Below the pieces are notes generated by a model that made no database searches, was not told the origin of the DNA, and worked only from the letters and a program-made list of their open reading frames with translations. Below are positions 1 to 9,589 of a stretch of 64,000 nt of DNA, one piece after another. The stretch lies in contig NZ_PTJS01000001.1 in the NCBI RefSeq assembly GCF_002941025.1, positions 5,647,472-5,711,471 of the forward strand. Direction: 5' to 3'. The DNA comes from Streptomyces sp. QL37 (GTDB lineage: Bacteria > Actinomycetota > Actinomycetes > Streptomycetales > Streptomycetaceae). Both the position numbers and the translations under genes were made by a program. How positions within the stretch are numbered: the first letter of the stretch is position 1; every line of letters starts with the position of its first letter.

Positions 1-95
1 TGAGGTCCGCCCCGTGTGATGAGCGCAAGCTGAAACTGAACGTTCAGCCTGAAGACGCGGTAACGGTGGAGGTTCGAGTCCTCCCCCCGGCACCA
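1..95 (+). pseudogene. tRNA-like remnant 1 (3' half intact, encoded CCA)
   Basis: A canonical T arm is visible: a 5-bp stem (68-72 with 80-84) closing a seven-base TTCGAGT loop. It is followed by a 7-nt acceptor strand CCCCGGC, discriminator A and an encoded CCA ending at 95. Upstream, an inverted repeat around 29-48 could be an anticodon arm, but its loop is 8 nt. No matching GCCGGGG 5' acceptor strand lies at the right distance. It is read as a decayed or highly divergent tRNA. The window begins at or inside it, so part could be missing. Confidence 0.4.
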
Positions 96-98
96 CTT

Positions 99-237
99 GC
101 CGGGGTGGCCCAACATGGCAGAGGCAGCCGCGATCAATCTCAGACTCTCGCTCCAGCTTCAGTATCGCCGCCGATTGCCAGATCGACCGAGTACGGACGA
201 ACACCGTTGAATGCTGGTTCGAATCCGGCCTGCGCCT
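99..237 (+). pseudogene. tRNA-like remnant 2
   Basis: GCCGGGG at 99-105 is a good 5' acceptor strand. It is followed by TG and a D-arm-like stretch containing GGC...GGC and the GGCAGA D-loop signature. It would pair exactly with the CCCCGGC that ends the preceding remnant. About 110 nt further on lies a T-arm-like element (TTCGAAT loop, about 213-229), but its following acceptor strand does not match. The total is too long for a normal tRNA, so insertion, fusion of two tRNA remnants or decay is likely. Function is unknown. Confidence 0.35.
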
Positions 238-243
238 CTACGC

Positions 244-372
244 GGCGCGGTAGTTCAAAGGCAGAACGCGACGGTATGACGACTGATCCGCACTCTTAAA
301 CGGCGCTGGCAAGCGCAATTGGGTGGCAACCCCAGGGGCCCGGGAGCTGGATACGACTCCCGGGCTCCGCCA
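244..372 (+). pseudogene. tRNA-like remnant 3 (clear D arm)
   Basis: GGCGCGG at 244-250 is followed by an almost textbook D arm at 251-268: TA, then GTTC paired with GAAC around an AAAGGCA loop. No seven-base anticodon loop with a five-bp stem follows cleanly. An inverted repeat at 342-361 is followed by CTCCGCCA, which resembles a tRNA 3' end, but the loop is 10 nt and the acceptor strand does not match. It is probably a degenerate member of the same tRNA-like cluster. Confidence 0.35.
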
Positions 373-583
373 CGCCCGGGCCGGTCCGGTTGCGGGGGTC
401 GGTAGGAAGCCACGGACAGGAAGCTGACTCATATGTCCGGTATGCGTGTCCGTATCTGCCCACCCACCGGGGCGCAGAGCTAGGGGGCGACCGCGACCGG
501 CGCACGGCGGCGGTGCACGCGCTGGTCCCCGGTCCCGTTTCCCCTGGCCCGGTTGTGGCACGCGCGCCGGTTCCTCGACGAGG

Positions 584-997
584 TCAGATCTTGATGGCCG
601 TGATTCGGTTTCCGCACAGTGCGGTGAGGTCTTCCGGGTCGGAGGTGAGCACGGTGACCTGCCCGGGTGAGGCGAGGGCGGTCGCGCCGAGTATGGCGTC
701 GATGGCGTACTTGTGGCCGGCGAGGCCCGCGTCGGCGAGCAGGGCGGAGGCGTGGCGTGCGATCTCCTCGGTCACCGGCTCGACGACGAGTCGGGAGAGG
801 GTCCACTCCAGGGCGGGACGGTTGACGCGAGGGTGGGTCACTTCCACGAGGATGGCCGCGGATGTGATCACGCGCAGATCGTCGGCCCGGGCGAGTGCGA
901 GCCAGGCGGTGACGCTGCGATCGCGGAGCACTGCCTTGGCCAGCCCTTCGCTGTCGAGAACGAGCGTGCCGCCCGGGGCGGCTGAGGGGCGCGTCAT
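584..997 (-). CDS. vapC: PIN-domain toxin, VapC-type ribonuclease
   Basis: A 137-residue PIN-fold protein, the usual length for VapC toxins. The expected acidic metal-binding positions are visible: D15 in VLDSEGL, E52 in ILVEVTH, D100 in AIDAIL and D120 in TSDPEDL. Family members are Mg-dependent RNases that cut tRNA or rRNA and are neutralised by a cognate antitoxin. Its ATG overlaps the stop codon of the upstream antitoxin gene (ATGA), the standard coupled layout, and supports this start. It lies on the minus strand next to the tRNA-like cluster. The RNA target cannot be read from sequence. Confidence 0.85.
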   Translation of the reverse strand: MTRPSAAPGGTLVLDSEGLAKAVLRDRSVTAWLALARADDLRVITSAAILVEVTHPRVNRPALEWTLSRLVVEPVTEEIARHASALLADAGLAGHKYAIDAILGATALASPGQVTVLTSDPEDLTALCGNRITAIKI

Positions 998-1260
998 GCC
1001 GCGTCGGACCCGTTCTGGGCCCGCTGCCGCCCGCGTGCCTCCTGGAGCTGCTCGCGGAGCGCCTGGATCTCGCCCTCGGAGATGGGGCCGTGCCCGGCCT
1101 CGCCGACCTTGATGAGCTCGTTGAGGTTGTCGCGCTCGATCTGCCGGGCGACGGCAGCCGCCACGTACGCGGACAGGCCGGAGGGGCCGCTCCGGGCCTT
1201 GGCGGCTTCGGCGATGTCGCGCGGCATGGTGATGGAGTACTTACCGGTAGGCTCGCTCAT
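994..1260 (-). CDS. vapB: VapB-type antitoxin, ribbon-helix-helix-like
   Basis: An 88-residue small protein immediately upstream of the PIN toxin, sharing a 4-nt ATGA overlap with it. The N-terminal part (KYSITMPRDIAEAAKAR, then GLSAYVAAAVARQIERD) has the strand-helix-helix pattern of CopG/RHH DNA-binding antitoxins. The C-terminal half is charged and helical, as expected for the segment that binds the toxin. It is predicted to bind its own promoter and repress the pair. The exact antitoxin family is not certain. Confidence 0.75.
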   Translation of the reverse strand: MSEPTGKYSITMPRDIAEAAKARSGPSGLSAYVAAAVARQIERDNLNELIKVGEAGHGPISEGEIQALREQLQEARGRQRAQNGSDAA

Positions 1261-1446
1261 GCTGTTTATCCTACCGTCGATCCTCCATGCGACGCCGGAG
1301 CAGGCAGCCTCTGGCAGCGGTCGCGGAGCTTGCGCCTCCGCCCCCCCCGCCTGCCCTGGCCGAACTCAATTACCGGGACCCCGACCCGCCTGGAGCTCAT
1401 CGCCGCCGACTGCACCACCCAGGAGCGTGTACGCCGTGAACCGGTG

Positions 1447-1752
1447 TCACAAATTGGCGGAACTGCGGTGTACTTGGCGGGCTGCCTCGCGGATGGCCTC
1501 GGCGTAGGGGGAGTCGAAGGCGCGTGTCTCCGGAGACAGGTCGCCGAACGGCACGAGCGCCGCGTGGGAGTCGTCGACCGACTGCATCCAGGCGGACCAG
1601 GCGTTGTGAACGTCCTCGTCGGTGACCTGCTCCCCCTTGGCTTCCAGAAGTACGGCGTAGATGCGGAACAAGGCAGCGGCGTCCGCAGGAGGTGCCGCGT
1701 CAGGAGGCAGGCAGGCGCGGATCAGGTCGGCGAGGGGATCGAGGTAGGTCAT
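1447..1752 (-). CDS. small conserved hypothetical protein coupled to RipA-like membrane gene
   Basis: I do not recognise a named family. The 101-residue acidic protein has no membrane segment and reads as mostly helical (MTYLDPLADLIRACLPPD at the start). The start is the ATG at 1752 because it overlaps the TGA of the upstream membrane gene (ATGA). Frame-compatible upstream starts would invade that gene. The overlap implies that the two proteins are made together, and it could be a soluble partner of the membrane protein. Confidence 0.6.
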   Translation of the reverse strand: MTYLDPLADLIRACLPPDAAPPADAAALFRIYAVLLEAKGEQVTDEDVHNAWSAWMQSVDDSHAALVPFGDLSPETRAFDSPYAEAIREAARQVHRSSANL

Positions 1753-2216
1753 ACGGTCAGTGTGCCCGCGAACAGCAGCAGGTGTGCCATGACGAACACC
1801 AGCGGTACGACGCGCTCGGAGGCCCCCAACTCCGCGTAACGCTTGCGCCATACGATGATCGGATCGCTTGTCAGGGCCTCCCATTCGTCGGAGAAGATCT
1901 TGACCTCAAGACGCTCCTCGATCTTGCTTATGCCCTTGAACTTCGCAGTGTTGAGGTCTCGGTAGCTGCGGAGCTGAAGCCACCAGGTGGCCGACAGGGT
2001 GGTGCCGGCCAGAGCCACGGCGAGCGCCGCCCACCACGGGGACTTGGCGAGTTCCTGGAACCCGAACCCGACCAGGGAGACGAAGGCGGTCTGCACGGAC
2101 AGGAAGTAGGCGTTGGCGGTCCCTCGCCGCGCCGAGATGCGGTCCGCCATCTCCACGGCGAGCTTGTAGAGCTCAAGGACCTCCGCGTGCCGACTCGGAT
2201 CAGGGGGTGTGGTCAC
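1749..2216 (-). CDS. small three-helix membrane protein, RipA/SLATT-like
   Basis: A 155-residue protein with three hydrophobic segments: about residues 33-52, about 62-82, and a C-terminal one. They flank a cytosolic helical part containing SYRDLNTAKFKGI and EERLEV..DEWEAL. This pattern matches what I remember of the RipA-family small membrane proteins and of SLATT-type two-helix effectors found beside nucleotide-signalling immune genes; the assignment is from memory, not a search. The GTG at 2216 is chosen because GGAGG sits about 6 nt upstream. An ATG 54 nt further up lacks a comparable site. It follows the TIR-like membrane gene by about 107 nt on the same strand. Confidence 0.6.
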   Translation of the reverse strand: MTTPPDPSRHAEVLELYKLAVEMADRISARRGTANAYFLSVQTAFVSLVGFGFQELAKSPWWAALAVALAGTTLSATWWLQLRSYRDLNTAKFKGISKIEERLEVKIFSDEWEALTSDPIIVWRKRYAELGASERVVPLVFVMAHLLLFAGTLTV

Positions 2217-2323
2217 TGGTCGCCTCCGGTGAGAAGTCCTGGCATCGGTGCTCCCGGCTGTAGACGTCATCGGGTATCGGATGGGCCAGTGCGGGTCTCT
2301 GGATCCCGTCCGGGCTCACTCCG

Positions 2324-3826
2324 TCAGCCGAAGCGGCGGCCGGTCCTGTCCTCGTGTGAGGCCAGCTGTCTGAAGGCCGGGCGCAGCCCGCGGGTGAGTT
2401 GGGTGAAGAGATTCTGCCAAGGGAGACTCTTCAAGGGTGTGCGGGTGAACGTGGGGTCCCAGTCCGCGGAGAAGTGAATGAGGCCGGTCACCGGATTGTT
2501 CTCGGGTTTCTCTTGCGGATAGTCAGGCAGGGACGGCGGAAAGCTGTTCCCCCAGGTCCGATTCCTTTCGGAGCCCGGCAGGTCGCGAAGGCTCTGCTCG
2601 ACGTCCTCGCGGATCTTGTCGTACTCCTCCTGGCCCATCGCTCCGGGCATCATCAGGAGGAGGCGCTGGGGCGGCAGAATGCGCATGGCTTCGGAGAGCT
2701 CCCAGACCGTGCCGGTGCTCGATCCCAAGCTGAGGGTGACCAGGCGGGACTTCTCCATGAGCTCCCTCACCGGCTGCTTCCAGGCTTCTTTCGGCAGATA
2801 CATGCGTACCGCTCCCGCGAAGGGAAGGATTTCTCCAGGGGCGCCGACGGCGATCAGTTGACCGACAGGGCTCAACGCATCCGCAATGTGTTCTTCCTCA
2901 TCGCGACTGGACATGACCAGGCCGATCGTGCCACCTGTGAGACGGTCTGGATGAGGCAATCCACCGCGCGGCCAAAGCTGATCCTGTAGTTCGGTGCGCT
3001 TTTTGTCGTCCTCGAATGACCTCAGGTAGAGCACGTAGGTGCCGGGTCGGAAGAATTTCTTCTCGGCGATGACCATTCCGAGGTGTCTGCGGCCGAGCAG
3101 GAACAGCTTTCTACTCCGATTGAAGATGGCCACCCCCATCGGCGCTAACAGTATGAACAGGCCGTCCGTCGACGATTTGACCGGTGTGGTCAGTACGTGA
3201 TGAATTCCCCAGAACGACACCCCGAGAGCCCCCAGGGTGCACGGCCAGCCGGCCAGCCAGAGTCCGAGCCCCAGCAGGGGGGACTGGCCGGGAAGCGTGG
3301 CCATGAAGGGCACACCTCGATTGCCGTCCCCTGAAAGGTCCAGGTACGGGATGCGGGGGCTGTGGAAAGCCCACAAGTCATGCCAGTACTGCTTCTTGCC
3401 GTACGGGATGGCCCAGAAAATGCCTGCGCTCGCGAGCGGTATCGCCAGGGTGACCGCCCATGGCCCCGCAGGGTCGTCGTTGTCGGGGAGGGTCAAGGCG
3501 CGATAGGCCAGGACGGCGAGCAGAACAGGAACCAGGGTTTGCAGCAGCACGCCGACTGCCTGGCGCCGGGTCTTCTCGTACGCCGAGAACGCGAAAAATA
3601 GAACAACCCCCAGCAGTGTTCCGGAAAGATAAGTGAGGGATGCTCCGGAGAGAGCGAGAACGGAGATTGCGGGGTATCGCAGAAATTGCACGCTTCGCGG
3701 GATGATGAATTCACTTGCGCAGCCCGTCAGGAATCCAAGAAAATACCATGGGATAGACGCGGGAATCGCTTCGGCGAGTTCGATTCCCCCCGCCCCGGCT
3801 ATGATCGCGCAATCACAGGTGATCAT
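2324..3826 (-). CDS. multi-pass membrane protein with C-terminal TIR-like domain (paralogue 1)
   Basis: A 500-residue protein. The first ~240 residues hold several hydrophobic segments, and the rest is cytosolic. The cytosolic part has YVLYLRSFEDD (about 264-274), VGAPGE..P..GAVRMYLP (about 327-345) and GTVWEL (372-377). It ends with a strand-rich tail containing ADWDPTFTR. The order SF..D, then an internal strand, then W-E followed by a hydrophobic strand recalls TIR domains, where the Glu is catalytic in NADases. This is inference by pattern, not a proven homology. GGGGG just upstream of the ATG supports the start. Codon 227 is TTA, so translation may need the bldA tRNA. It is a clear paralogue of the gene at 4013-5614. 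Confidence 0.65.
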   Translation of the reverse strand: MITCDCAIIAGAGGIELAEAIPASIPWYFLGFLTGCASEFIIPRSVQFLRYPAISVLALSGASLTYLSGTLLGVVLFFAFSAYEKTRRQAVGVLLQTLVPVLLAVLAYRALTLPDNDDPAGPWAVTLAIPLASAGIFWAIPYGKKQYWHDLWAFHSPRIPYLDLSGDGNRGVPFMATLPGQSPLLGLGLWLAGWPCTLGALGVSFWGIHHVLTTPVKSSTDGLFILLAPMGVAIFNRSRKLFLLGRRHLGMVIAEKKFFRPGTYVLYLRSFEDDKKRTELQDQLWPRGGLPHPDRLTGGTIGLVMSSRDEEEHIADALSPVGQLIAVGAPGEILPFAGAVRMYLPKEAWKQPVRELMEKSRLVTLSLGSSTGTVWELSEAMRILPPQRLLLMMPGAMGQEEYDKIREDVEQSLRDLPGSERNRTWGNSFPPSLPDYPQEKPENNPVTGLIHFSADWDPTFTRTPLKSLPWQNLFTQLTRGLRPAFRQLASHEDRTGRRFG

Positions 3827-4012
3827 TTTCCCCCGTCACGGATCCACTGCTGCGGCAGGAGTTCGGCCCCACTCGCACCCCGTACCCCAACTAGCCTGTT
3901 CAGTACCTCACTTGAGAGAGCATCCGTGGTGACGCATCCTCGGGGCCGTCCGGTTCCGGTCGTGACGCGGGAGCCGGCGGCCCTGGGATGGCGGTAGCGG
4001 TTCGTGGCAACG

Positions 4013-5614
4013 TCAGGCGCGGTCAGGGGGTCGTGGGGCCGGGGGCAGCTGGGAGATGGGGTCCATGGCCGGCCTGAGCTCGCGTCTAACCAGTCGGCGA
4101 ATCACCCAGACATGCCTGATCCGTGGCACGGTCGGGGGGAATCGCGTGAACCGTGGGCACCACCGTCCGTCGAAGGACAGGATCCCTTTGAGGGGGAAGT
4201 CCCATCGGATCCCCTTCGTGTGCGGGGCGGGAGGCGGGAGGTCCGGAAAGCGCGGCAGGGGTGGCCAGTCGACGCCTGTTCCGGCGGACGACCTCGTCGC
4301 GTATTCGTCTGCCGCAGCTTCCTGGAAGGCTTGGTACATCTCGTCTTCATAGATGAGCAGGAGTAAGCGGTCGGGTGTGGTGGTGCGTAGTACCTCGGTG
4401 AACTCCCACGCCGTTCCGGGACCTGGGGCAGCCGTCATGATCACTGCGTGTGCGCCCTGAATCAGCCCGCTCACCGTGTCCTTCCACTTGTCGACGGGTA
4501 GATAGCCGCGTTCCGCCCCGAGGGCCGGCAGGGGCTCGCCCGGCTGCCCGACCGCGACAACCCGGCCGAGGCCGCGGAACTGGCGTACCAGGAATTCCTC
4601 GTGCGTCCCCGTGAGCTCGAAGGGGGAGCGGGTGTACCAGCCCGGAACCTCGTCCGGTGGCAACGCCATCACGGGGTCGATGGCGAAGGGCCGCAGGTAG
4701 AGCAGATAGCGCTCCCCGGCGAGTTCGTCGAGCGAGGGGATGATCCGGTGGCGGTGCTGCCTTCCCCGTTTCAACACGGCGTCGCCGACGATGAAGAGCA
4801 GGAACGGAGGCACCACCACCCCGACCGCGATCAGCGGCTCCAGCCACGGGGAGAGGCCCGCCTCGGGCACCAGGTCGCCGTACAGAATGAAGCCGACGAG
4901 GCCCAGCGGCAGCGCCGGAGCGAGCATCGCCCACCCCAGTACGGTCAGCACGCGTCCTCGACCGGGACTCTGGTGCGCCTGTTCGCCGCTTTGCGGCACG
5001 GCGGATTCCGTGGCATCGGCGTCCAGGGCGCTGCCGTCCCTCGGCTGAGTGGCCAGAACCTCAAGCGCCACCATGGCGCCGGAGAGGGCGTACATGACGC
5101 ACCAGGGCCAGGGGATGTCGAAGTGCCCGTCGATGCGCGTTTTGGTGACGACGATCAACACGCTGGCTGTAGTGGCGGTGGCGAGCGTCGTGAGGTGTAC
5201 AAGAGCCTGCGCCCTGCCCAGGCGTCCACAGGCCAGGATGGTAATGACCACGCCGAGCAACTCCGCTACGGGGAGAAACAGGATCACATAAGTTGCTATG
5301 TCGAAAATGAAGAGCACCACCCGGAAGAATGTGGTGTCCAGCTCGTCGCGGATCACGGAATAGGAGAACGATCCGAGACGCCTGGTTTCTCGCGCATAGC
5401 TTTCGAGGGTCAGCCACAACGTGACGAACGCTGAGACGATCAGGCCTATCGTGGCCGATCGTTTCGACAACGCGTTGCCTGGTCCGGACTCGGTCGCGGA
5501 CCGGCGGGCGTGAAAGGCGGTCATGAGCGCCTGGGTCGATGTGGAAATCACGGCGATCCACACAACGACCCCGGGAACAGGGGACATTCGCATATAATCG
5601 CACAGAATGGCCAC
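4013..5614 (-). CDS. multi-pass membrane protein with C-terminal TIR-like domain (paralogue 2)
   Basis: A 533-residue paralogue of the neighbouring 2324-3826 product. Six or so hydrophobic segments occupy residues 1-280, with a polar linker around 190-220. The cytosolic domain has YLLYLRPF (303-310), VGQPGE (355-360), GAERGYLP..W (367-377), GTAWEF (400-405) and a tail with RWCPRFTR. Motif order and spacing match the paralogue. The start could be the GTG at 5614 or in-frame ATGs at 5593 or 5587. None has a convincing ribosome site, and a leaderless transcript is possible. Codon 417 is TTA. Substrate and ligand are unknown, and a TIR-like NAD-processing or nucleotide-sensing role is inference. 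Confidence 0.65.
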   Translation of the reverse strand: MAILCDYMRMSPVPGVVVWIAVISTSTQALMTAFHARRSATESGPGNALSKRSATIGLIVSAFVTLWLTLESYARETRRLGSFSYSVIRDELDTTFFRVVLFIFDIATYVILFLPVAELLGVVITILACGRLGRAQALVHLTTLATATTASVLIVVTKTRIDGHFDIPWPWCVMYALSGAMVALEVLATQPRDGSALDADATESAVPQSGEQAHQSPGRGRVLTVLGWAMLAPALPLGLVGFILYGDLVPEAGLSPWLEPLIAVGVVVPPFLLFIVGDAVLKRGRQHRHRIIPSLDELAGERYLLYLRPFAIDPVMALPPDEVPGWYTRSPFELTGTHEEFLVRQFRGLGRVVAVGQPGEPLPALGAERGYLPVDKWKDTVSGLIQGAHAVIMTAAPGPGTAWEFTEVLRTTTPDRLLLLIYEDEMYQAFQEAAADEYATRSSAGTGVDWPPLPRFPDLPPPAPHTKGIRWDFPLKGILSFDGRWCPRFTRFPPTVPRIRHVWVIRRLVRRELRPAMDPISQLPPAPRPPDRA

Positions 5615-6286
5615 TCGGCTGGGGCATTCAGGGAATTAGGAGTGGTCCGCGTAAGGGACTCCGTTCGAAGTGGCACAGGATGGGCCGCACGATGCGTCCC
5701 GCCGTGGAACGCGCCGACCTCGTGGAACCTTCGGGCTCGTGCGACTGGACGGCTGGTGAGCCCAGGGCAGGCGCCCGATGGGTCGACGTCGTGTTCGGCG
5801 AGGGGCGATGGCTGTCCTCGGCGGGCAGGCGGAAGCCGAGTCGGAACTCCCTGTGGAACAGCACCAGTTCGATTTCAACGTCGACGTGGGGTGCGCGGTC
5901 ATGCTGCTGAACGGGCCGGACATCCTGCCAAGTCGGGCACATGGCCCCACCTCCGTCCGCCGTGTCCCCGGCCGGGCTGCAAGGCCATCGCCAAGCTCCT
6001 CGGCGGGGATCCGGTACATCCAGGCCTCCGGAATCCGGGGCGAACTCCGGCCCGCGCCCCGAGCGTGCCACGCGCCCTGCACGGCCGCTGGCGGAGACCG
6101 GCCGAGAATGCTGTTGGTGGAGGCGCCGGTCGGCCGGCGGGACATAGTTGACCGCGTACGCGTCGGCAAGACGGATGTGGCCGATCTGGATCTGCTTGAT
6201 GGCTGTCCCGGTATCGCGCTCATCGCTCCGGGCGCCGCGTCGGCGGGCCGCGACACCATTCCACGGCCTCGGTGAACCAGAGACGC
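5615..6286. other. about 670 bp without a confident gene; possible decayed coding sequence
   Basis: Both strands have open frames here, but none shows a good ribosome site, consistent codon bias or a recognisable family. On the minus strand short protein-like segments appear in different frames (for example QIGHIRLADAYAVNYVPPA near 6180, and AWMYRIPAEELGDGLAARPG near 6020). This would fit a frameshifted gene remnant. I cannot name it. Confidence 0.3.
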
Positions 6287-6332
6287 GAAAAGACCCCCTG
6301 TGCAGTGTTGCCACTGGCGAGAGGGTCTTTTC
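6287..6332 (-). terminator. hairpin downstream of tRNA-Arg
   Basis: Inverted repeat with arms GAAAAGACCC and GGGTCTTTTC, the T-run lying within the arm. It sits 17-62 nt beyond the tRNA 3' end on the tRNA's strand and is the likely transcription terminator. Confidence 0.7.
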
Positions 6333-6348
6333 GGCACTTCCTGCGAAG

Positions 6349-6420
6349 TGCCCCCGGCAGGATTCGAACCTGCGCACCCGGCTCCGGAGGCCGATGCTCT
6401 ATCCCCTGAGCTACGGGGGC
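6349..6420 (-). tRNA. tRNA-Arg (anticodon CCG)
   Basis: A full cloverleaf on the minus strand. The acceptor GCCCCCG pairs with CGGGGGC. The D arm is GCTC..GGGATA..GAGC, the anticodon loop is CTCCGGA (anticodon CCG, decoding CGG), and the T arm has loop TTCGAAT. The discriminator is A, and CCA is not encoded. Loci such as this are common integration sites. The accessory block lies on its 3' side, as expected if an element once inserted here, but I found no second copy of the tRNA 3' end in the window. Confidence 0.95.
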
Positions 6421-7107: not shown

Positions 7108-8172
7108 GTGACCCCCGCAGATCTCTCCCGGACCGTGCTGCACGCTGTGCGCCGCGCGGTCGACGAGGACGCCCTGCGCGCGCCGGTGCCCGCGCGCGTG
7201 CGGGTGGAGCGGACACGGCCCGGCGGCAGCGGTGACTACGCCTGCGCCGTCGCCCTCCAGCTGGCCGGCCCCGCCGCGCTCCCGGCGCGGGAGGTCGCCG
7301 CGCTGCTGCGGGACCGGGTCGCCGGCGCCCCCGGGATCGGACGGGTCGAGATCACCGGGCCCGGATTCCTGAACTTCACGCTCGACGCGGTCTCCGACGG
7401 CGCCGCCCGGGCCGCACGCGTACGCCAGGTGCTGGAGCAGGGGCTCCGGTACGGATGGGGTGCCGAATGCGCCGGGCAGGTCCATCAGCTCCACCACCGG
7501 CGTGAGGTCCGGGCAGCGGTCGTGGCGGGCACGGCGATGCGGCTGCTGCGCGCCCAGGGCGCCCTGGGGCGTGTCAGCTGTGAGGAGGCGTCCGACCCCG
7601 ACTGGGCGCGTCTCGGCGTCACCGTCGACGCGCACGGCCGGCCTCCCGTCCCGCTCGCGCAGACCCGGCCCGTCCCCGCCGGGGCCACGGCGGGGGAGCT
7701 GCTGGAGCGGCTGGGGGCCGACGCGGCCCGCTGGGGCCTGCTGAGGCCCGCCGGGCACGACCGCGCCCACCTCGGGGACGACCTCCTCGTGCAGGGCGAG
7801 GCCAACCCGCTGTTCCTGGTCCGCTACGCCCACGCCCGCTCCCGTGCGCTCACCCGCGAGGCGGGGCGCCTCGGCTTCACCGCCGGTTACGACCAGGACG
7901 TCGACGCGCCGGCCCTCCACGCCGCGCTCGCCGATCACCCCGGCGCCCTCGCCTCCGCCGCCCGCCACCAGGCACCGGACCGGCTCGCCCGGCACCTCGA
8001 AACGGTGGCGCACGCCTTCTTCGACTTCCACGATGCCTGTCCGGCGCTCCCCGTCGGCGACGAGAAACCCTCGGCCGCCCACCGCTCCCGGCTGGCCCTT
8101 GCCGAAGCCGCCGCGACGGTGCTCGCAGGCGGCCTGTCCCTGCTCGGCATCAGCGCGCCCGAACACCTCTGA
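7108..8172 (+). CDS. ArgS-like protein lacking the catalytic core
   Basis: 354 residues against roughly 550-600 for arginyl-tRNA synthetase. The N-terminal ~110 residues match the Add1/tRNA-recognition domain (PGFLNF). A short vestige aligns with the start of the Rossmann core (VHQLHHRREVRAAVVAGTAM, where ArgS has its HxGH motif). It then jumps to the DALR anticodon-binding domain (GADAARWGLL, NPLFLVRYAHAR). The HIGH and KMSKS motifs are absent or ruined, so aminoacylation is not expected. The gene is 25 nt upstream of lysA and close to a tRNA-Arg gene. A regulatory or tRNA-binding role is inference. Confidence 0.8.
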   Translation: MTPADLSRTVLHAVRRAVDEDALRAPVPARVRVERTRPGGSGDYACAVALQLAGPAALPAREVAALLRDRVAGAPGIGRVEITGPGFLNFTLDAVSDGAARAARVRQVLEQGLRYGWGAECAGQVHQLHHRREVRAAVVAGTAMRLLRAQGALGRVSCEEASDPDWARLGVTVDAHGRPPVPLAQTRPVPAGATAGELLERLGADAARWGLLRPAGHDRAHLGDDLLVQGEANPLFLVRYAHARSRALTREAGRLGFTAGYDQDVDAPALHAALADHPGALASAARHQAPDRLARHLETVAHAFFDFHDACPALPVGDEKPSAAHRSRLALAEAAATVLAGGLSLLGISAPEHL

Positions 8173-8197
8173 GACCGCAAGAGAGCAGAGCAGAACG

Positions 8198-9589
8198 ATG
8201 AGCCGATCCGCACACCCCGCCGGGCCCCGTCACGCCGACGTCTACCCCGAGGGCCACTACACCGCCCCGGCCACCGACCTCAACGAGCTGGACCCGAAGG
8301 TCTGGTCCCGCACCGTCACGCGTGACGCGGACGGTGCGCTCACCGTCGGCGGGATCGAAGTCGCCAGGCTCGCCGAGGAGTTCGGCACGCCCGCGTACTT
8401 CCTGGACGAGTCCGACTTCCGGGCGCGCTGCCGTGCCTGGGCGGACGCCTTCGGGCCGGACGCCGATGTCTTCTACGCCGGCAAGGCCTTCCTGTCGCGC
8501 GCCGTGGTGCGCTGGCTCCAGGAGGAAGGGCTGAACCTGGACGTGTGCTCCGGTGGCGAGCTGGCGACCGCGCTGGACGCCGGGATGCCCGCCGAGCGCA
8601 TCGCCTTCCACGGCAACAACAAGACCGTCGCCGAGATCGAGCGGGCCGTCGAGGCGGGAGTCGGACGCATCGTGCTCGACTCCTTCCAGGAGATCGTCCG
8701 CGTCTCGCACATCGCCCAGCGGCTCGGCGTCCGCCAGCGCGTCCAGATCCGCGTCACGGTCGGTGTCGAGGCTCATACCCACGAGTTCATCGCCACCGCG
8801 CACGAGGACCAGAAGTTCGGCATCGCGCTGGCCGACGGGCAGGCGGCCGAGGCGGTCCGCAGGGCGCTCACCCTGGACGGCCTGGAGCTCATCGGAATCC
8901 ACTCGCACATCGGCTCGCAGATCTTCGACATGGCCGGCTTCGAGGTCTCCGCGCGGCGCGTCGTGCAGCTGCTCGCCGAGATCCGCGACGAGCACGGCGT
9001 CGAGCTCCCGGAGATCGACCTCGGCGGTGGCCTCGGGATCGCCTACACCTCCGAGGACGACCCCCGTGAGCCGCACGAGATCGCCAAGGCGCTCAGCGAC
9101 ATCGTGACCCGGGAGTGCGAGTCCGCCGGTCTCCGGACCCCGCGCATCTCCGTCGAGCCGGGCCGCGCCATCGTCGGCCCCACCGCCTTCACGCTGTATG
9201 AGGTCGGCACCATCAAGCCCCTCGAAGGCCTCCGGACGTACGTGAGCGTCGACGGCGGGATGTCGGACAACATCCGCACCGCGCTGTACGACGCCGAGTA
9301 CAGCGTCGCGCTGGTCTCCCGCACCTCCGACGCCGAACCCATGCTCGTACGCGTGGTCGGCAAGCACTGCGAGAGTGGTGACATCGTGGTCAAGGACGCG
9401 TTCCTGCCGTCCGACCTGGCCCCGGGTGACCTCATCGCGGTGCCGGCCACCGGTGCGTACTGCCGCTCGATGGCGAGCAACTACAACCACGCCCTGCGCC
9501 CGCCCGTCGTCGCCGTGCGCGACGGACAGGCGCGGGTCATCGTCCGGCGCGAGACGGAGGAAGATCTCCTGCGTCTCGATGTCGGCTGA
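8198..9589 (+). CDS. lysA: diaminopimelate decarboxylase
   Basis: A 463-residue PLP enzyme that makes L-lysine from meso-diaminopimelate in the cytosol, the last step of the lysine pathway. PLP-binding Lys96 sits in VFYAGKAFLS. GIHSHIGSQ, VEPGRAIVG and the catalytic HCESGD are all present, followed by the C-terminal beta-barrel. The N-terminal ~40-residue extension (YPEGHY..) is usual in Streptomyces. The ATG at 8198 follows the ArgS-like gene by 25 nt, and hom follows, placing lysine and threonine branches of aspartate metabolism side by side. Confidence 0.97.
   Translation: MSRSAHPAGPRHADVYPEGHYTAPATDLNELDPKVWSRTVTRDADGALTVGGIEVARLAEEFGTPAYFLDESDFRARCRAWADAFGPDADVFYAGKAFLSRAVVRWLQEEGLNLDVCSGGELATALDAGMPAERIAFHGNNKTVAEIERAVEAGVGRIVLDSFQEIVRVSHIAQRLGVRQRVQIRVTVGVEAHTHEFIATAHEDQKFGIALADGQAAEAVRRALTLDGLELIGIHSHIGSQIFDMAGFEVSARRVVQLLAEIRDEHGVELPEIDLGGGLGIAYTSEDDPREPHEIAKALSDIVTRECESAGLRTPRISVEPGRAIVGPTAFTLYEVGTIKPLEGLRTYVSVDGGMSDNIRTALYDAEYSVALVSRTSDAEPMLVRVVGKHCESGDIVVKDAFLPSDLAPGDLIAVPATGAYCRSMASNYNHALRPPVVAVRDGQARVIVRRETEEDLLRLDVG

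Follow-up and report, generated by a model that had tools for sequence, protein, structure and literature searches.

Two unlike membrane proteins with a common, divergent TIR-like domain form part of a candidate conflict cassette in Streptomyces

What might two unlike membrane proteins with a common C-terminal domain be doing in an accessory block of a Streptomyces genome? We examined such a pair in Streptomyces sp. QL37 (genome G000, 8.78 Mb), within a 64,000-nucleotide stretch analysed as a whole (the window). Two genes on its minus strand, here p2 and p1, are followed by genes for an 8xMP family membrane protein and a DUF7701 protein. An initial annotation, made from the DNA letters alone, had read p1 and p2 as paralogues with TIR-like cytosolic domains beside a RipA/SLATT-like membrane protein. 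We judge the chances evenly balanced that p2-p1-8xMP-DUF7701 is an undescribed conflict cassette, most likely anti-phage, of the kind that combines a TIR-type signal maker with a membrane effector, p1 and p2 being membrane-anchored and carrying a domain that would be a divergent member of the TIR/SLOG-like superfamily. We name the C-terminal domain common to both proteins TIRL. The features are as follows.

4013..5614, minus strand: p2, multi-pass membrane protein with a C-terminal TIRL domain (open reading frame list; 533 amino acids, GTG start)
4055..4771, minus strand: TIRL domain of p2, residues 282-520, with W403-E404 (alignment A4, row 2)
2324..3826, minus strand: p1, membrane protein with a C-terminal TIRL domain (open reading frame list and BLASTP against p2; 500 amino acids)
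2354..3100, minus strand: TIRL domain of p1, residues 243-491, with R269, W349, W375 and E376 (model and residue counts)
1749..2270, minus strand: 8xMP family membrane protein, putative membrane effector (PF24838, E 2e-40)
1447..1752, minus strand: DUF7701 protein, 101 amino acids (PF24792, E 8.7e-39)

Gaps of 186 bp and 53 bp separate p2 from p1 and p1 from the 8xMP gene, whose stop is overlapped by the DUF7701 start; the four genes look like a single operon, presumably transcribed together.

BLASTP matched the two proteins at 92 bits (E 4e-24, 30% over p1 226-464 and p2 272-493), and the shared stretch contains, in order, LYLR(S/P)F..D, VG(A/Q)PGE.LP..GA.R.YLP...W, GT(V/A)WE(L/F) and an FTR tail. 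Match and ordered motifs together argue that the likeness is not due to chance, and both reading frames and motifs were found where the initial annotation had placed them. Neither protein matched any family in Pfam, NCBIfam or PADLOC at E 1. The five to seven N-terminal helices claimed earlier are roughly right: hydropathy gave 6-7 segments in p2 and 2 strong ones in p1, where a looser cut-off brings the number ahead of the domain to 6. At least two hydrophobic segments precede the motif in 41 of 45 full-length TIRL proteins, p1 and p2 included (L053, in which the motif was not located, is scored as a miss), and the part ahead of the motif spans about 90 to 680 residues.

The pair is paralogous in having a common C-terminal domain, but the two are not recent duplicates. 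In the tree, p2 falls inside an 11-row clade with support of 99/99. This clade does not include p1, whose nearest neighbours, at a less certain fork, come from other genera; recent tandem duplication was rejected on this basis. Two TIRL proteins from different clades also occur together in Streptomyces macrolidinus (L015). Thus p1 and p2 may be a working pair, or two sensors serving one effector; an excerpt of PMC7272460 proposes the latter role for multiple unlike ThsB copies in a locus. A Frankia protein (L021, 3528-6011, plus strand) carries two TIRL domains in a single chain, of which the second has Q at the position of the conserved Glu. The sequence is also contained in G636, where a span of 24 kb has five TIRL matches.

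Is the domain TIR-like? Across 56 aligned domains including p1 and p2 (p1 numbering), R269, W349 and W375 are present in all 56, E376, E311 and G338 in 55, and D274 in 53; the W+4 position (E379) is E in only 30. The lone row without an E376 equivalent is the second L021 domain, and W403 and E404 of p2 are invariant across the 39 full-length rows of alignment A5, so the feared non-conservation of the Glu in the WE motif was not seen. Conservation of this kind would be more typical of an active site than of a surface that only binds, as far as residue conservation can indicate. A profile match to ThsB-type TIRs aligns E376 with a Glu invariant in the 12 TIRs used, and it stands above its controls, which were 120 alignments with shuffled columns and a set of unrelated families. 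By conservation and alignment, E376 thus agrees with the Glu expected of a TIR domain in the helix after a central strand.

Structure models gave a divided answer. Modelled at full length, p2 has a mean predicted local distance difference test score (pLDDT) of 75, with the domain mostly >85 and most N-terminal helices about 50-68. The top VIA match for p2 is a TIR-STING chain, and the best two listed rows are TIR-containing proteins. Several results weigh against a TIR assignment: the p1 domain model (pLDDT 87.4, predicted template modelling score 0.86) ranks other Rossmann-type folds equal to or above TIR, Foldseek returned no match at E 0.001, and no TIR family in Pfam matched p1, p2 or 46 aligned domains at E 1. 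Overall, TIRL as a divergent TIR-like domain is moderately supported, and genomic context strengthens this reading. Profile matches to designed TIM barrels were rejected as evidence; they have only a short E..GA.R...W pattern in common with TIRL.

What does the genomic context comprise? The supposed RipA/SLATT-like neighbour is indeed a membrane protein, but it matches PF24838 (8xMP) in full at 138.2 bits against a cut-off of 30; PF24838 alone exceeded its cut-off, and no SLATT model matched at E 1. An 8xMP gene beside TIRL recurs in unrelated loci. The independent measure is a PF24838 search of 293 genomes of the order, which gave 50 matches above cut-off in 41 genomes. There, 8xMP lay within 2 kb of 17 of the 34 TIRL matches, in 14 genomes; random placement in the 15 genomes holding both families produced a mean of 0.03 pairs and never more than 2.

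We then compared gene layouts in the window and 59 further regions, in which our own profiles detect 38 8xMP loci. Of the 50 PF24838 matches, nine were left out, namely eight weak matches and the mirror copy G171 C3:44668, and our 8xMP profile did not recognise three of the other 41 (L129-L131). Since regions were picked for TIRL or 8xMP, counts within them are not independent of that choice. Genes were called by our own G+C-based caller, and some calls are surely wrong. Within 3 kb, the 38 loci have SLOG-like genes in 16 cases, TIRL in 15, DUF7701 in 10, ThsB-type TIR in 7 and none of these in 9.

All 10 8xMP-DUF7701 pairs in these regions hold TIRL (4) or a ThsB-type TIR (7), one of them both. 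TIRL fills the layout in the window, L115 and L117, a ThsB-type TIR does so in L124, L152 and L167-L170 (L167 in pieces only), and L132 has both; named genomes add L018 and L019 with TIRL and L024 with both. A doubtful ThsB-type match inside a long frame in L113 was left out of use. The recurrence of ThsB-type TIRs beside 8xMP is telling because few genomes of the class have ThsB_TIR at all (6 of 118). In L124, L168, L169 and L170, DUF7701 and 8xMP are fused, directly downstream of the ThsB-type TIR gene, and TIRL was not found in the region.

A second layout, TIRL-8xMP-SLOG, occurs in L120-L123, and in L112-L114 with a DUF4328 gene in between. DUF7701 and SLOG-like genes are never together at a single 8xMP (P 0.001). 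SLOG-like genes are common (168 of the 293 genomes), so their presence near 8xMP is less telling. These TGH-motif neighbours are called SLOG-like because matches to SLOG models are weak (YpsA, YAcAr and DprA models match 5, 2 and 2 of 20 members, best E 0.006) and a PDB search gave no clear match. In L135, L147 and L148, where 8xMP is absent, TIRL adjoins caspase and SLOG-like genes. Of 36 TIRL copies, 14 lack all of these partners within 5 kb.

Other neighbours were seen at individual loci. On a Catenulispora contig shared with L017, L147 (5931-10075, minus strand) holds codirectional caspase, SLOG-like, DUF805 and TIRL genes. In G140 the TIRL-8xMP-SLOG set is adjoined by a ThsA-type macro protein, the only such case recognised near TIRL in 32 genomes or records. 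Next to a set of this kind in L123, a protein at 7864-9318 (minus strand) combines a SARP/AfsR-like start, by eye, with a ThsA-type macro region (PDLC00415, E 1.9e-53). In L118, a protein-kinase-like gene, by eye (3685-5508, plus strand), ends just upstream of a TIRL gene, and a shortened 8xMP comes after that TIRL gene. In L153 (6931-11317) and L154 (1008-5718), the genes near 8xMP encode a TIR_2 protein and a large KGGTGR P-loop protein, and a KGGTGR-type P-loop gene is also nearby in L166.

The earlier proposal, a pair tethered to the membrane and accompanied by an anti-phage-like partner in an accessory block, is supported by the recurrent pairing with 8xMP, DUF7701, ThsB-type TIR, SLOG-like and caspase genes. 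Placement in classical defence islands was not seen: by eye, the genes flanking the cassettes appear to be mostly housekeeping, regulatory or transport genes. Family scans of the flanks took in 100 genes, cassette members included, drawn from 150 listed of 234 flanking genes and from the set viewed by eye, with 25 of 58 families and the first 25 of 114 Pfam families listed; PADLOC matches of flanking genes to a kinase and an ABC ATPase look generic. A role of the cassette in phage defence is plausible.

How might such a cassette work? The computed basis for a mechanism is the conserved domain with its Glu, the recurrent linkage, the sharing of one slot by TIRL and ThsB-type TIRs, and the DUF7701-8xMP fusion. 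With the TIRL domains placed in the cytosol, the membrane part, or assembly of the pair, would sense infection or membrane damage and switch TIRL on. The conserved WE helix would then cleave nicotinamide adenine dinucleotide (NAD+) or another nucleotide to yield a signal, the TIR-type protein making or relaying a nucleotide signal. DUF7701 here, and the SLOG-like protein in sister cassettes, could read that signal and open or assemble 8xMP as a putative channel or pore, causing growth arrest or cell death ahead of phage release if phage is the trigger. As a tentative and rather unlikely elaboration, we propose a membrane-confined, Thoeris-like immunity in which unlike membrane-anchored TIR-type pairs sense infection, a local nucleotide signal acts on an oligomeric 8xMP channel, and DUF7701 and SLOG-like proteins are interchangeable readers. 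If true, a TIR-like family so far unrecognised would join bacterial immunity, the unexplained families PF24838 and DUF7701 would be tied to nucleotide signalling, and a compact four-gene operon would make nucleotide, reader and membrane opening directly testable. It would also suggest membrane-confined TIR signalling inside a bacterium, as in animal Toll receptors.

These readings compete with three others. TIRL could be a Rossmann-type nucleotide binder without catalysis that receives the signal of another enzyme, such as a ThsB-type TIR, as a membrane receptor beside 8xMP. We consider this unlikely, given E376 in 55 of 56 domains, its alignment with the Glu that all ThsB-type TIRs used have in common, and the lack of a ThsB-type TIR within 3 kb of 8xMP at 14 of 15 8xMP loci with TIRL (the rest of those genomes was not searched for this). 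An enzyme of another Rossmann-like kind, for instance glycosyltransferase-like or nucleoside-deoxyribosyltransferase-like, and acting on a membrane substrate, is quite improbable: TIR-containing proteins head the p2 matches, glycosyltransferases score no higher than 6.3 among the VIA matches listed, and the ThsB profile match stands above the shuffled and unrelated controls.

Alternatively, the cassette could serve mycelial actinobacteria in signalling related to stress, the envelope or development, and not in defence against phage. The distribution bears on this in both directions. Searched with alignments as queries, TIRL relatives occur in 21 contigs of named genomes, all from actinobacterial hosts. 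Genome samples at three ranks, overlapping and with G000 among them, gave relatives in 23 of 293 (order), 9 of 394 (class) and 3 of 396 (phylum). Among plasmid records, p1 has five matches and p2 four. Genome contigs and plasmids were the collections open to all bacteria, other searches being confined to the phylum, and every match in both is actinobacterial, which speaks for the signalling module; 32 stretches of viral contigs fit a pattern, none confirmed as TIRL, and Foldseek against viral structures gave nothing useful. The mostly non-defence flanks agree with this view. Such a module nevertheless seems improbable to us, since the distribution is patchy, with p1 and p2 unmatched in all 36 same-genus relatives tested and the domain present in 23 of the 293 order genomes, and since partners such as ThsB-type TIR, caspase and SLOG-like genes are typical company in conflict systems.

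Does the candidate conflict cassette belong to a known system? Like Thoeris, it has a TIR-type gene adjoining an effector gene, 8xMP-DUF7701 cassettes of one kind include ThsB-type TIRs in some cases and TIRL in others, and more than one unlike TIR-type protein can be present in a locus, as the PMC7272460 excerpt has it for ThsB. Unlike Thoeris, the TIR-like proteins are membrane-anchored and the partner is 8xMP, where ThsA is a SIR2-SLOG or macro protein. No PADLOC or Pfam match to ThsB or ThsA was found among six block genes, to which the ThsA search in G000 was confined, and PF08937, the ThsB-type TIR family, was not found in G000. SLOG/TIR/SLATT nucleotide-signal conflict systems were reportedly described by Burroughs in 2015. 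As set out in an excerpt of a paper by Aravind and colleagues (PMC7159879), TIR/SLOG-type proteins are linked with a small membrane protein, a predicted signal-gated pore, and caspases are among other effectors. The likeness extends to all of these elements in that excerpt, but here the membrane partner is PF24838, TIRL is a family without a model in the libraries searched and has its own membrane part, and DUF7701 takes the place of SLOG.

TIR-STING (SfSTING) differs in that p1 and p2 are anchored by helices, and no STING-like match was noted for either. The DUF4062/Swarozyc domain, as an excerpt of PMC13174449 describes it, is likewise sequence-distant from known TIRs with a conserved Glu; it is a different family, reported to be an anti-phage NADase with measured activity, an activity that for TIRL is putative. 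By the tests made, the cassette thus resembles TIR/SLOG/small-membrane-protein systems in its proposed working and Thoeris in its layout, and is a member of neither. The initial annotation had likewise known of no described system with this architecture, and our literature search by DUF7701, PF24838, 8xMP and neighbouring terms returned no description of these families or the gene set (subscription papers lay outside its scope).

The block is accessory, judging by the missing p1 and p2 matches in all 36 same-genus relatives and by G+C of 0.62-0.68 per kb in window 1-6000, against 0.67-0.79 in L206, a 20 kb region extending about 18 kb further left than the window. No obvious defence gene was seen by eye left of the block. 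To the right of the cassette lies one further feature.

6348-6420: tRNA-Arg (ARAGORN)

Integration at this tRNA-Arg with a repeated attachment site was rejected, as a search of window 1-6300 and L206 for another copy of the tRNA end gave no more than a single 16-base near-match. Directly downstream of the operon, a PIN-domain gene (584-1260, minus strand; PF01850 just above cut-off) overlaps an upstream gene of 88 amino acids, and the two look like a toxin-antitoxin pair. At window 60-380, several tRNA-like pieces in a row (GGTTCGAATCC-type arms), seen by eye where ARAGORN called no gene, may be what is left of tRNAs at the block's left edge.
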